Below are positions 2,538 to 6,847 of a stretch of 53,148 bases of DNA, one piece after another. Position 1 is the stretch's first letter; the number at the start of each line of letters is the position of its first letter. Position numbers and translations under genes: made by a program. The notes below the pieces were generated by a model. The model ran no database searches. It was not told the origin of the DNA and saw only the letters and a list, made by a program, of their open reading frames with translations. The DNA is from an uncultured Erysipelotrichaceae bacterium (GTDB taxonomy: Bacteria; Bacillota_I; Bacilli_A; Erysipelotrichales; Erysipelotrichaceae), in NCBI GenBank assembly GCA_944325685.1, contig CALVBC010000022.1, positions 1 to 53,148 on the forward strand. Reading direction: 5' to 3'.

Positions 2538-2640
2538 ACGCATATGATAGCACTTTAAGGCCTATTTATAAGCTATCAAAGCTTAAAATTACCTTGGTCT
2601 AACTTTGTGTTTGCCATATAAATGAGTATAATACATGGGT
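2538..2640. promoter_or_regulatory. Divergent leaderless promoters, cobB and DMT gene
   Basis: Minus strand: the extended -10 TGC-TATCAT (2544-2552) lies 6 nt before the cobB ATG. Plus strand: TTTGTG (2604-2609), a 17-nt spacer and TATAAT (2627-2632), 8 nt before ATG 2641. Neither gene has a Shine-Dalgarno. Confidence 0.65.
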
Positions 2641-3507
2641 ATGCAACATTTGAAGGGTGAATTAGTACTACTTATAACCGCGATCATCTGGGGCTTTGCC
2701 TTTGTGTTTCAAAGCACCGCGGCTGATCTTATCGGCGCCTTTACATTCAATGCCTTTCGTTTCTTATTAGGGGCTTTATCGATATTACCGCTACTTCGTT
2801 TTAATCGCCATGGGATGGATATCAAAAAGTGTATCAGAAGTGGTATCTTACTTGGGATCATGATCTTTTTAGGTTCTACCACCCAACAGATAGGCATCGC
2901 CTATACGACAAGTGGCAAGGCTGGTTTTATATCGTCACTGTATATGATCTTTGTCCCGATATTAGGCTTTATCTTATTCCGTCATAAGACGAATAAGAAT
3001 GTCGTGATCGCTCTGATATTAGCGTTATTTGGCCTATATCTTATCAATGGTGGCTCATTTGTCTTTGAGATGAGTGATCTCATCATCATCTTGAGTGCGG
3101 TCTTTTTTGCCTTACACATCATCTTTGTCGACCGTTTTGCCAAGGATGTCAACAGTGTCATGCTGTCGTTTGTACAGTATTTGACCGGTGGTATCATCGC
3201 TCTTATCCTAGCTTTGATCTTTGATGATATGCAATTAAACATGATCATCAAAAGTATGCCATCGGTCTTATACACGGGTATCTTGTCAACTGGTGTAGCC
3301 TATACTTTACAGATCATCGGCCAAAAGAATACCGAGCCAGCCATCGCTTCTTTGATCCTGTCTTTAGAATCGGTAGTATCGGTCATCGGTGGTTATCTAC
3401 TACTCAATGAGACTTTGACACTGATCGAGATGATCGGTTGTATATTCATGTTTATCGGCGTCATGATCGCCCAAAGGAGAGACAAAAATGCAAGATCTAG
3501 CGACTAG
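2641..3507 (+). CDS. EamA/DMT-family membrane transporter
   Basis: A 288-aa drug/metabolite-superfamily carrier with about ten hydrophobic segments arranged as two five-helix EamA repeats. An early IIWGFAF motif and a second-repeat stretch (residues about 215-235, ending in QKNTEPA) are typical. The substrate is unknown; relatives export amino acids or other metabolites. ATG 2635 lies only 2 nt after the -10 hexamer, so ATG 2641 is preferred. The 3' end overlaps the chorismate mutase gene by 20 nt, so the two form a small operon. Export of an aromatic metabolite would fit that neighbour but is only inference. Confidence 0.85.
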   Translation: MQHLKGELVLLITAIIWGFAFVFQSTAADLIGAFTFNAFRFLLGALSILPLLRFNRHGMDIKKCIRSGILLGIMIFLGSTTQQIGIAYTTSGKAGFISSLYMIFVPILGFILFRHKTNKNVVIALILALFGLYLINGGSFVFEMSDLIIILSAVFFALHIIFVDRFAKDVNSVMLSFVQYLTGGIIALILALIFDDMQLNMIIKSMPSVLYTGILSTGVAYTLQIIGQKNTEPAIASLILSLESVVSVIGGYLLLNETLTLIEMIGCIFMFIGVMIAQRRDKNARSSD

Positions 3508-3745
3508 CAGAGAAAAATTAAACATCATCGATGCGAAGATGAAAGAGTTGTATTTAGAGCGGATGGCAGTTATCAAAGAGGTCACTGCTTATAAGAAGGC
3601 TAATGGTATCGCTACTTATGATCCTAAAAGGGAAAGTGAGATGAAGGAACGTCTCAGTAAAGATGTACCGGAAGGATTAAAAGCTTACTATCTAGAATTC
3701 TTAGAGACGATCTTAAAAACATCTAAAGATCTTCAAGACGAATAA
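3488..3745 (+). CDS. Chorismate mutase, AroQ type
   Basis: An 85-aa all-helical enzyme converting chorismate to prephenate for Phe/Tyr synthesis. The active-site residues of the E. coli chorismate mutase domain are recognisable three positions earlier: Arg8, Arg25, Lys36, Asp45, Arg48 and Glu49. The length matches a stand-alone AroQ domain. ATG 3488 is preceded by AGGAGAG inside the end of the DMT gene, so translation is coupled. No other aromatic-pathway gene is in the window. Confidence 0.88.
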   Translation: MQDLATSREKLNIIDAKMKELYLERMAVIKEVTAYKKANGIATYDPKRESEMKERLSKDVPEGLKAYYLEFLETILKTSKDLQDE

Positions 3746-3796: not shown

Positions 3797-3828
3797 GAAG
3801 GAGGCTTTATTATGAGCTTACTTCTTAT

Positions 3829-3954
3829 TGCGCCTCGCACTTTCGTTAGAAAGGAAAGACGGTGGACATCCTATCCGTCATCGCCTTGATGATCGCTTGT
3901 GTGATCATCAAGCATTTGACTAAGCGATAGTCTAAGTTTACCGTGCGAGGCGCA
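3829..3954 (+). repeat. 12-bp inverted repeat bracketing the peptide ORF
   Basis: TGCGCCTCGCAC (3829-3840) is exactly complementary to GTGCGAGGCGCA (3943-3954). In the transcript the 5' and 3' ends would pair, with TTAGA (3846-3850) and TCTAA (3931-3935) extending the helix towards the ribosome binding site. This resembles the fold-back inhibition of hok mRNA. Confidence 0.75.
3862..3930 (+). CDS. Candidate type I toxin-like membrane peptide
   Basis: A 22-codon ORF starting GTG with AAGGAA 6 nt upstream. It encodes a short peptide beginning MDILSV, with a hydrophobic run rich in I, A, L and V (residues 3-16) and a basic tail ending HLTKR. This is the layout of Fst, Ldr, Ibs and TxpA-type toxins, although I cannot place it in a named family. 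An upstream in-frame stop at 3847 fixes the start. GACGG (3858-3862) can pair with CCGTC (3875-3879), burying the start codon. Codons 8-17 also form a perfect 10-bp hairpin (3885-3894 with 3903-3912). The alternative is that the locus is purely a structured RNA. Confidence 0.45.
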   Translation: MDILSVIALMIACVIIKHLTKR

Positions 3955-4003
3955 TAATGAAAGGAGTGGTTACCGCCACTCCTTTCTTAGTTTACCGTGC
4001 GAG
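3931..4003 (+). repeat. 19-bp direct repeats flanking the terminator
   Basis: Positions 3931-3949 and 3985-4003 are identical except for one base and share the core AGTTTACCGTGCGAG. They flank the central hairpin. Paired direct repeats near a shared terminator are a hallmark of Fst/par-type loci, where they are the sense-antisense contact points. Confidence 0.8.
3960..3985. terminator. Central hairpin, possible bidirectional terminator
   Basis: A perfect 10-bp stem (AAAGGAGTGG at 3960-3969, CCACTCCTTT at 3976-3985) with a 6-nt loop. U-rich sequence follows on the plus strand. It lies where a sense transcript and a converging antisense transcript would both end. Confidence 0.6.
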
Positions 4004-4010: not shown

Positions 4011-4136
4011 ATTGATATTTTATCATATATCCATAGCTTATGTTCATCTAATTTATCGATACAGTTTTTCCATACATCTAAACAAATAATGAACACTTAT
4101 GCGTTCATCAAGAATTCGACTAAGAGATGCTATATA

Positions 4137-4174
4137 AAAATGTGATAAGCCTACTGCTAGACTTATCACATTTT
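4137..4174 (-). terminator. Terminator of the copper operon
   Basis: A 13-bp perfect stem (4137-4149 with 4162-4174) with a 12-nt loop. On the minus strand it follows the csoR stop codon within a few bases and is followed by T-rich sequence. Confidence 0.8.
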
Positions 4175-4175
4175 T

Positions 4176-4433
4176 TTATTTGCTTCTAGTCAATGACTTA
4201 AAGGCTTCTTCGATCTTTGATTCATCACCGTCTAATAAGGCTTCTTTGACACAGGTCTTGAAATGCTCTTCCATGATCATCTGTGACACTTTAGCCAAGA
4301 TAGCTCTAGTGGCATTTATTTGATCGTTGATCTCGATACAGTAGCGATCTTCATCGATCATCTTGATGATGCCATCGAGTTGGCCTTTAGCGATATTGAG
4401 ATTGCGGATGACTTTTTTGTGATCAGCCTTCAT
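4176..4433 (-). CDS. csoR: Copper-sensing transcriptional repressor CsoR
   Basis: An 85-aa all-alpha repressor that releases DNA on binding Cu(I). The Cu(I) ligands appear as Cys32, His57 and Cys61 (EEHFKTC). N-terminal basic helices around residues 5-20 carry the DNA-binding face of the DUF156 family. Its ATG lies inside the end of copA (11-nt overlap), so it is the last gene of a copA-csoR operon and its expression is tied to CopA. The probable operator lies in front of copA. Confidence 0.93.
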   Translation of the reverse strand: MKADHKKVIRNLNIAKGQLDGIIKMIDEDRYCIEINDQINATRAILAKVSQMIMEEHFKTCVKEALLDGDESKIEEAFKSLTRSK

Positions 4434-4632
4434 GGTGGATGGCTTTTACTTCATAGCCGGCATCAGTAATACATGACTTGATCGTCTCATCACTGATATC
4501 ACCTTCGACATAAGCTTTCTTATCGGCTAGTGATACATTGGCTTTGACACCGTTTTTCTCTAAAGCGTCTTTGACGTGTTTGACACAGTGTTCACACATC
4601 ATCCCTTCTACATCGATCGTGATCTTTTCCAT
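4423..4632 (-). CDS. copZ: Internal in-frame CopZ copper chaperone start within copA
   Basis: ATG 4632 is in frame with copA and preceded by AAGGAGG (4641-4647) at 8 nt. The 69 residues from it form a complete HMA chaperone with GMMCEHC (Cys13 and Cys16). Sixty-nine residues is also the usual size of stand-alone CopZ. The reading is either a copA-copZ gene fusion that kept the old copZ start, or a dual-product gene making both the pump and a free chaperone. The start signal is visible in the sequence; its use is inferred. Confidence 0.6.
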   Translation of the reverse strand: MEKITIDVEGMMCEHCVKHVKDALEKNGVKANVSLADKKAYVEGDISDETIKSCITDAGYEVKAIHHEG

Positions 4633-6795
4633 TTGTTTTTCCTCCTTTTTCACGTTTATTTCTTTTTTATGGATCTTACGGATCCGTAGTGCATTTGATA
4701 AGACGATGATCGAGCTCAGTGACATCGAGAAGGCTCCGATCATCGGATTGAGACTAAAGCCAAAGGCTGGATAGAAGACACCGGCAGCGACTGGGATGAA
4801 GATACTGTTATAGAATAGGGCCCAGAATAAGTTCTGTTTGATGATCCGCATCGTCTTTTGGCTCAGTGTCATCATAAAGTCGATATCGCTGAGGTCATTT
4901 TTCATTAAGATGATATCACTTGATTCATAAGCGACATCAGAACCACTGGATATCGCAAAGGAGATATCAGCGGCAGATAATGCGATCGCATCATTGATGC
5001 CATCACCGACCATCGCGACAAGGCCATTATTTTGGTTTGTCTTAACGGTGTTATATTTGTCTTCTGGTTTTACTTCCGCTAATACTTCATCGACACCGAT
5101 CTCTTTGGCGATATTATCAGCTATTACCTTATTATCGCCAGTGCACATGATCACTTTGACACCACGGTCTTTGAGATCCTTGATGGCTTTTTTACTGGTA
5201 TCCTTGATGATATCAGCGATATAGACAAGACCTAATACCTTTTCATCTTTAGCGACCATGATATATGAATAACGGTTATTTAAAGCTTCATCGATATCCT
5301 TTTGGTCGTATTTGACACCAAAGTGATCAAATAACTTATAGTTACCAGCGATATAGATACTGTCACCTTTTACTGCCTTGATCCCTTCACCAGATATCTC
5401 TTCAAAGCTATCAAAGCTCAGATCATGGTCATCATAGTGTTCAGTGACCGCTTTAGCGATCGGATGTTTAGAGTTTTTCTCTAAAGCGACTAAGGTAGGG
5501 ATGAAGCTATCATCGAAGCTGATCTCTTTGATGATCTTTGGCTTGTTTTCAGTGATCGTACCGGTCTTATCTAGGATGATGGTCTTGATATCATGGGTGA
5601 TCTCTAAGACCTCTGGATTTTTGATGAGGATGCCATTTTTAGCACTGACCCCAGTTGCGACCATGATGGCACTAGGTGTCGCAAGACCTAAGGCACAAGG
5701 ACATGAGATGACAAGGACCGATAGACCAAAGTTCATGGCTTGTTCAAAGTTTCTGGTGAAGATATACCAAACTAAGAAGGTGACAAGGGCGATCGCGATG
5801 ACACCTGGCACAAAGAAGGATGAGATCTTATCGGCAAAGCGCTGGATCGGGATCTTCTTTAGTGTCGCTTCTTTAGTGAGTTCGATGATCTTCGATAAGA
5901 TCGAGTCCTCATTGGTCTTGGTTACTTTTATCTCTAAGGAGCCATTTAAATTGATGGTACCACCGATGATCTCATCACCGACTTTTTTATGGACGGGTAA
6001 GGATTCACCAGTGATCATCGATTCATCGATATCGGCTTCACCTTTGATGATCACACCATCTTGACCGATCGATTCACCAGCTTTGGTGATGATGATATCA
6101 TCGATCTTTAAGTCTTCGATCTTGATGACCTTAGGCATGCCATCTTTTAAGACGGTGACTTCCATCGGTCTAAGCGTTGCGAGTAATCTAACAGCTTTGG
6201 TCGTCTTTTCCTTATTGATGCCCTCGATATACTTACCGATCGATACGATGACTAAGATCATCGCTCCGGTCTCAAAGTAGAGATGAAAATCATGGGAGCC
6301 ACTTGCGATCTTGAAGAGGGCATAGATACTATAGAGATATGACACACTACAAGATAGAGTGACTAGGGCATCCATATTCGGATTCAAATGGATGATACTC
6401 TTGATACCACTTTTGAAATAGTGGAATTCCAAGATGTAGATGACCGTCGCGACGATGAGCTGGATGTAGTTAGAATATGGTGGCGTTGGTAGGTTTACCA
6501 TATGGCCCATCGACAGATACATCAAAAAGACCATGAGCACTACCGAGACGATGAGCTTGACTTTAGAATAGTCGATCTCTTTTTTCTTTTCCAAAAGCAT
6601 CTCATAACCTAAGTCATCGACCGTCTTTTTGATCATATTCTCGCTGAGTTTGGATTCATCGTATTCGATGAGCATGTCATTGTCTAAGAGATTGACTTGA
6701 CAAGACACGACACCATCCATCTTGGCGACGTTTTTTTCGATCGTGTTTTTACAGATGGCACACGACATGCCTTTTATTTCGTAATCTTTTTTCAT
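4423..6795 (-). CDS. copA: Cu+-exporting P1B-type ATPase CopA with C-terminal CopZ
   Basis: A 790-aa copper pump of the cytoplasmic membrane. The order is: N-terminal HMA domain (GMSCAIC, Cys12 and Cys15), six to eight membrane helices, the CPC motif in ISCPCALG that defines Cu+ transport, phosphorylation motif DKTGT, HP motif, and GDGIND. After the last helices comes a second HMA domain of 69 residues. A C-terminal HMA is unusual, and this one begins at an internal ATG with a strong ribosome binding site. ATG 6795 follows GGGGG at 5 nt; the upstream GTG at 6801 is less likely. It is followed by csoR. Confidence 0.95.
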   Translation of the reverse strand: MKKDYEIKGMSCAICKNTIEKNVAKMDGVVSCQVNLLDNDMLIEYDESKLSENMIKKTVDDLGYEMLLEKKKEIDYSKVKLIVSVVLMVFLMYLSMGHMVNLPTPPYSNYIQLIVATVIYILEFHYFKSGIKSIIHLNPNMDALVTLSCSVSYLYSIYALFKIASGSHDFHLYFETGAMILVIVSIGKYIEGINKEKTTKAVRLLATLRPMEVTVLKDGMPKVIKIEDLKIDDIIITKAGESIGQDGVIIKGEADIDESMITGESLPVHKKVGDEIIGGTINLNGSLEIKVTKTNEDSILSKIIELTKEATLKKIPIQRFADKISSFFVPGVIAIALVTFLVWYIFTRNFEQAMNFGLSVLVISCPCALGLATPSAIMVATGVSAKNGILIKNPEVLEITHDIKTIILDKTGTITENKPKIIKEISFDDSFIPTLVALEKNSKHPIAKAVTEHYDDHDLSFDSFEEISGEGIKAVKGDSIYIAGNYKLFDHFGVKYDQKDIDEALNNRYSYIMVAKDEKVLGLVYIADIIKDTSKKAIKDLKDRGVKVIMCTGDNKVIADNIAKEIGVDEVLAEVKPEDKYNTVKTNQNNGLVAMVGDGINDAIALSAADISFAISSGSDVAYESSDIILMKNDLSDIDFMMTLSQKTMRIIKQNLFWALFYNSIFIPVAAGVFYPAFGFSLNPMIGAFSMSLSSIIVLSNALRIRKIHKKEINVKKEEKQMEKITIDVEGMMCEHCVKHVKDALEKNGVKANVSLADKKAYVEGDISDETIKSCITDAGYEVKAIHHEG

Positions 6796-6798
6796 ATA

Positions 6799-6847
6799 CA
6801 CCCCCTATGGGTATTATCAGTATACCCAGTGGCTAGTTTTGATGCAA
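6799..6847 (-). promoter_or_regulatory. copA promoter with CsoR operator
   Basis: On the minus strand, TTGCAT (6842-6847), a 17-nt spacer and TATACT (6819-6824). The -10 and start region overlap two C/G-tract inverted repeats: GGGTAT...ATACCC (6810-6828) and an ACCC-ATA-GGGGGT element (6800-6813). These resemble CsoR boxes in other Bacillota, so copper-relieved repression is likely. Confidence 0.7.

Follow-up and report, generated by a model that had tools for sequence, protein, structure and literature searches.

A copper pump gene that may also encode its own free chaperone: a conserved internal CopZ start signal at the C-terminal domain of CopA

In an uncultured Erysipelotrichaceae bacterium, the copA gene found in a 53,148-nt stretch of contig CALVBC010000022.1 that was analysed as a whole (hereafter the window) very probably serves two products, a copper pump with a tethered chaperone and a free CopZ generated by conserved internal initiation on the same mRNA. 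According to the proposed mechanism, ribosomes that load at the copA start would synthesize a pump with a chaperone-like HMA attached to its C-terminal end, and other ribosomes would start de novo, in the same frame, at AAGGAGG-N8-ATG and release a free CopZ of 69 residues (~7 kDa), which would carry Cu(I) to the pump. The observations that bear on this are a complete chaperone domain, a start signal in front of it, the conservation of this arrangement across phyla, its placement at the terminal HMA, weak structure around the start and a complementary distribution of stand-alone copZ genes. The pump gene and its parts outside the embedded chaperone are the following.

Positions 4423 to 6801, minus strand: copA, encoding a Cu(I) P1B-type ATPase with an N-terminal and a C-terminal HMA (open reading frame and domain profiles).
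Positions 6601 to 6780, minus strand: N-terminal HMA of CopA (domain profile).
Positions 4633 to 4683, minus strand: linker from the last-TM anchor (LSNALR) to the internal Met, comprising RKIHKKEINVKKEEKQ and its neighbours, hypervariable except for the Shine-Dalgarno (SD) sequence.

Read from GTG 6801 to 4423, copA encodes 792 aa, although the likelier start is ATG 6795, two codons in and preceded by an AGGGGGT SD. The translation scores 580 bits against the profile of copper-translocating P-type ATPases (TIGR01511, cut-off 397) and has the hallmarks of a P1B-1 Cu-ATPase, namely SCPCALG (which includes the CPC motif), DKTGT and GMSCAIC together with an N-terminal HMA. This N-terminal HMA is the expected acceptor domain, at which docking would take place. 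The embedded chaperone gene and its signal lie at the other end of the reading frame.

Positions 4423 to 4632, minus strand: embedded copZ, 69 codons plus stop, a complete HMA with GMMCEHC, opening at the in-frame ATG 4632-4630.
Positions 4641 to 4647, minus strand: internal SD AAGGAGG, 8 nt before the ATG and the sole AAGGAGG in copA.

The final 69 residues of CopA (MEKITIDVEGMMCEHC...HHEG) are encoded from 4632 to 4426 and followed by the stop codon at 4425-4423. An earlier note on this DNA had described them as a full HMA of CopZ length, and profile and structure bear this out: PF00403 matches over positions 1-62 of 62 (49.5 bits, cut-off 24.8), the solved CopZ structure 1k0v aligns with the terminal HMA across residues 1-65, and the piece has what defines a CopZ-type protein, a complete HMA with an MxCxxC motif (here GMMCEHC) in about 65-70 aa. 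It falls under the cut-offs of two curated CopZ models, NF047957 (60.7 of 85) and NF033795 (46.5 of 91), and by these profiles is CopZ-like, outside both narrow models. The in-frame ATG with AAGGAGG 8 nt upstream, also pointed out in the earlier note, lies exactly as described there, the SD (4647-4641) being separated from the ATG by an 8-nt spacer (AAAAACAA) and pairing with the anti-SD with a duplex energy of -11.8 kcal/mol. No other CopZ was found in the window's own genome (1.36 Mb in 31 contigs), where the only further HMA matched with confidence belongs to a VDCANC protein, the neighbour of a ZntA-like ATPase, and one weak HMA match (21 bits) lies in a 204-aa frame. The predicted free CopZ is thus apparently the genome's sole copper chaperone.

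The neighbourhood of copA contains the following features.

Positions 4176 to 4433, minus strand: gene for a CsoR-like copper-sensing repressor, overlapping the 3' end of copA (PF02583, 82.5 bits).
Positions 6798 to 6834, minus strand: pseudo-palindrome GGGTATactgataATACCCatagGGGGTgTAT resembling a CsoR operator, immediately before the likely copA start (read from the sequence).
Positions 4132 to 4179, no strand assigned: inverted repeat with T/A tracts, following the csoR-like gene (read from the sequence).

The best NCBIfam match of the csoR-like gene is RicR, below the cut-off of that model. The pseudo-palindrome is a candidate CsoR operator, and the inverted repeat is the probable terminator of the operon. 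Elsewhere in the window (3822-3961, and 3985-4003), a 22-codon GTG-started reading frame on the plus strand (3862-3930, MDILSVIALMIACVIIKHLTKR, with AAAGGA upstream) is flanked by 19-nt inverted repeats (TTCTTATTGCGCCTCGCAC and GTGCGAGGCGCATAATGAA), and this locus resembles those encoding type I toxin-like small membrane peptides.

The earlier note had suggested that internal initiation may yield both the pump and a free CopZ, and had let this turn on whether the ribosome binding site and ATG are conserved among fused homologues. They were sought in 205 non-redundant CopA (tails at most 90% identical) that carry a C-terminal HMA, drawn from named genomes that were scanned and from genome searches at genus, family and phylum level. 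In 188 of them the terminal HMA opens with a start codon preceded by an SD (186 ATG and two GTG/TTG, the latter with very strong SD), which supports the suggestion; the start is missing in the other 17. The anti-SD duplex is -7 kcal/mol or stronger at 168 of the 205 terminal HMAs, and AGGAG or GGAGG precedes the start in 160 (about 78%). Such a conserved in-frame start codon with an SD at a domain boundary is one mark of an internal-initiation (gene-within-gene) locus. The set is mostly from Bacillota, with members from Spirochaetota and Coriobacteriia too, and named carriers belong to Erysipelotrichales, Lachnospirales, Eubacteriales, Tissierellales, Treponematales, Spirochaetales and Coriobacteriales. 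Many of the source genomes are metagenome assemblies, but the arrangement is present in isolates too (L047, Faecalibacillus faecis; L056; L077; L083, Agathobaculum; and L100, Treponema porcinum). Because the query included the linker, recall was biased towards similar linkers; when the query was restricted to the ATPase core, the ATG and SD were found in 8 of 11 fused loci.

Could the signal be a relic? A recent copA-copZ fusion, in which the stop was lost, the old copZ ribosome binding site has yet to decay and the protein works only in fused form, was the alternative raised in the earlier note, which also proposed looking for relatives with separate genes and a stop codon at the junction. 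Such relatives exist and show how fusions may arise: in L062 (TAGGAGGACAAAATG) and L160 (TAGGAGGACAATATG), where the split junction reads TAG GAG GAC AAA ATG, the copA stop is itself part of the copZ SD, so that a single base change would suffice for fusion with the SD left intact. In addition, at least 10 changes between fused and unfused states were counted on a tree of 222 CopA cores (a FastTree estimate). This part of the idea, the origin of the fusions, therefore stands. As an explanation for the signal it was rejected, because the SD is retained in deep, uniformly fused clades. The window clade (26 members, support 97) is entirely fused and keeps the SD in 25 of 26 with core identity down to 0.45, and other uniformly fused clades behave alike (supports vary from 4 to 100), so that across clades of 18-43 members and core identities down to 0.45-0.52 the SD has persisted as the linker changed in length and sequence. 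That decay does happen is seen in genus g48, whose linkers have lost both the internal Met and the SD (their best SD reaching -0.4 to -2.2). With these findings strongly opposed to it, a leftover binding site is a very improbable account.

What distinguishes the genomes without the start came from their stand-alone HMA genes, which were compared in nine no-start genomes (the tandem-HMA cases of family f2 being left out) and 43 start genomes, HMA types and genus-collapsed counts being tallied by hand. A canonical stand-alone copZ is present in seven of the nine (four genomes of genus g48, L339-L342; G101, L260; G097, L344; and G267, L345) and in none of the 43 (Fisher strict 2.7e-7, genus-collapsed 2.5e-4, phylogeny otherwise uncorrected). 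Under a broad definition of a stand-alone HMA, seven of the 43 start genomes have one (G015, G018, G093, G099, G108, G114 and G514, with another small soluble HMA type), and the association weakens to 6.6e-5, or 0.01 when genus-collapsed. The internal start and a canonical stand-alone copZ are thus mutually exclusive in the genomes checked. The same split is seen within genera g20 and g27, in each of which the no-start member has a separate copZ and the checked start members (G019 and G069; G141) have none. G267 shows what may be called an intermediate arrangement (L345, about 2580-3095), a fused CopA without internal start and a separate copZ directly after copA. Of the other no-start genomes, G423 has neither an internal start nor a stand-alone copZ, and the only small HMA of G304 (L346) is not a canonical copZ and belongs to a small HMA family, GMxCxMCExHIN, that is present in start genomes too (L367, L368, L374, L376, L377 and L379). 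Members of this family, with the fuller pattern GMxCxMCExHINDxIR...VKKV.SSHKKG, occur in genomes with and without the start (L272, L346, L367, L368, L374, L376, L377 and L379). Separately, several genomes of the bacterial family and order encode membrane-anchored single-HMA proteins with an N-terminal TM, CCGG/CCSS and an HMA (L261, L263, L264, L347, L352, L362 and L364-L366), and the L365 gene lies directly upstream of copA.

Free CopZ might also come mainly from a separate transcript initiated at an internal promoter. The E. coli chaperone is partly controlled at the level of the transcript, to judge from the title of Drees 2017 (cited in PMC7558416), and an internal transcript would use the same SD and ATG. 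Promoter-like sites in the region, however, number 9 against 8.7 in shuffled sequences, no excess, and we regard such a transcript as the main source of CopZ as slightly less probable still than the relic. A short transcript feeding the same internal start would in any case leave the product unchanged.

For the preferred reading, internal initiation, it matters how specific the signal is to the start of the last domain. AGGAG or GGAGG occurs at the same distance before only 30 of the 4311 in-frame ATGs located elsewhere in homologous copA genes (0.7%). The median anti-SD duplex is -11.1 kcal/mol at internal starts versus -2.5 at 3597 in-frame ATGs elsewhere in these genes, and 87.6% of the former versus 4.0% of the latter reach -7 kcal/mol or lower. 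Where a CopA has more than one N-terminal HMA, the later domains (27 in all) never have a strongly SD-backed ATG. Two or three C-terminal HMAs occur in 14 CopAs; 10 of these have the start on the last HMA, and only one of 18 non-last C-terminal HMAs has a start (L118, with a predicted two-domain product). Being at the last HMA and nearly absent from other HMA boundaries, the start would mark the piece from which a single-domain chaperone could be made. In three tandem cases (L118, L129 and L234), a start, strong in L118 and weak in the others, precedes the first of the C-terminal HMAs and would give a two-HMA chaperone.

It is the bases rather than the amino acids that seem to be kept, since the SD sits in two main codon phases (GGAG in phase 2 in 129 genes and in phase 0 in 42) and is read as KEE in some CopAs and as KGG, KGD or EGD in others. 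In 171 of 177 genes the SD is stronger than synonymous recodes are on average; many genes are unexceptional singly (median p 0.13), the signal lying in the aggregate, for which the Fisher-combined p is ~1e-37, ignoring phylogeny. Folding energy at the internal start is -3.4 kcal/mol, compared with -11.9 for random windows and -5.0 for synonymous recodes, hence weak structure. The initiation itself, the amount of product and its role in copper delivery are inferred.

Slowing of ribosomes has been put forward as a role of internal SDs, and the SD does lie just past the last TM helix in many CopAs, as it would if it served as a translational pause for insertion of the last TM helices and initiated nothing. 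Yet its distance is fixed to the ATG (7.9±1.7 nt) and not to the membrane, the TM-to-ATG length ranging from 9 to 70 codons, which indicates that the SD tracks the ATG. Moreover, where C-terminal HMAs come in tandem the SD accompanies the last of them, at a great distance from the membrane, and a pause leaves unexplained both why an ATG stands at the exact start of the domain and why losses are complemented by stand-alone copZ. We therefore hold it to be very improbable. Finally, a coincidence of chance Met and K/E-rich linker, for which one might invoke that charged linkers are common, that AAG and GAG codons build SD-like strings and that the synonymous null already averages -5.8 kcal/mol, is effectively refuted by the tandem-HMA boundaries and the same-gene ATGs, and sits badly with the two codon phases and the combined p (phylogeny again ignored).

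How does internal initiation in copA compare with known systems? The E. coli copA gene relies on programmed frameshifting to give both a pump and a chaperone, CopA(Z) (Meydan 2017; Drees 2017, as cited in PMC7558416). The comparison, drawn in the earlier note, is apt in that a single copA gene gives a copper pump and, here by prediction, a free HMA chaperone. The mechanism would differ: in E. coli, frameshifting truncates the protein after an N-terminal HMA, whereas here it is a C-terminal HMA that would be released by in-frame internal initiation, so that both the domain and the predicted mechanism are different. The E. coli-type slippery site CCCAAAG, expected after the N-terminal HMA, does not occur in the window copA. 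Across the whole window there are 11 occurrences against 3.3 expected, all outside copA. The copA-copZ operons of Bacillota (with CopZ of B. subtilis and E. hirae) share with the window copA the single operon, the HMA fold, MxCxxC and a similar distance from start to Cys. There, however, a stop separates the genes, often overlapping the copZ SD as in L062 and L160, whereas the window copA lacks the stop and carries a tethered copy. HMAs at both ends are also found in a known Cu-ATPase, for which we know of no report of a separately translated C-terminal domain. Separate translation of a C-terminal domain from the same gene has been described for SpaO-short of a secretion sorting platform (PMC12132427) and for RpnS of a toxin-antitoxin system (PMC10327210); these proteins are unrelated, whereas the product predicted here would be a metal chaperone serving the very pump from whose gene it comes. 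Published internal initiation of CopZ within CopA was not found in the open-licence literature.

Taken together, we consider it likely, if less firmly than internal initiation as such, that much of Bacillota, together with some Spirochaetota and Coriobacteriia, obtains its standard copper chaperone by internal initiation within the pump gene and not from a gene of its own. The pump would then always come with one tethered copy and the free chaperone would scale with pump mRNA; split and fused forms would interconvert at a stop codon within the SD, and the start would be kept or lost according to the presence of another copZ. If true, this would be a second and mechanistically different solution to the problem that E. 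coli copA solves in making a pump and a chaperone. The arrangement would be common in Bacillota and easily overlooked in annotation, since the chaperone lies inside a longer gene, which would account for the apparent absence of copZ from such genomes. It would also be a clear example, open to testing, of a ribosome binding site under selection within a coding sequence, its natural losses going together with a stand-alone copZ.
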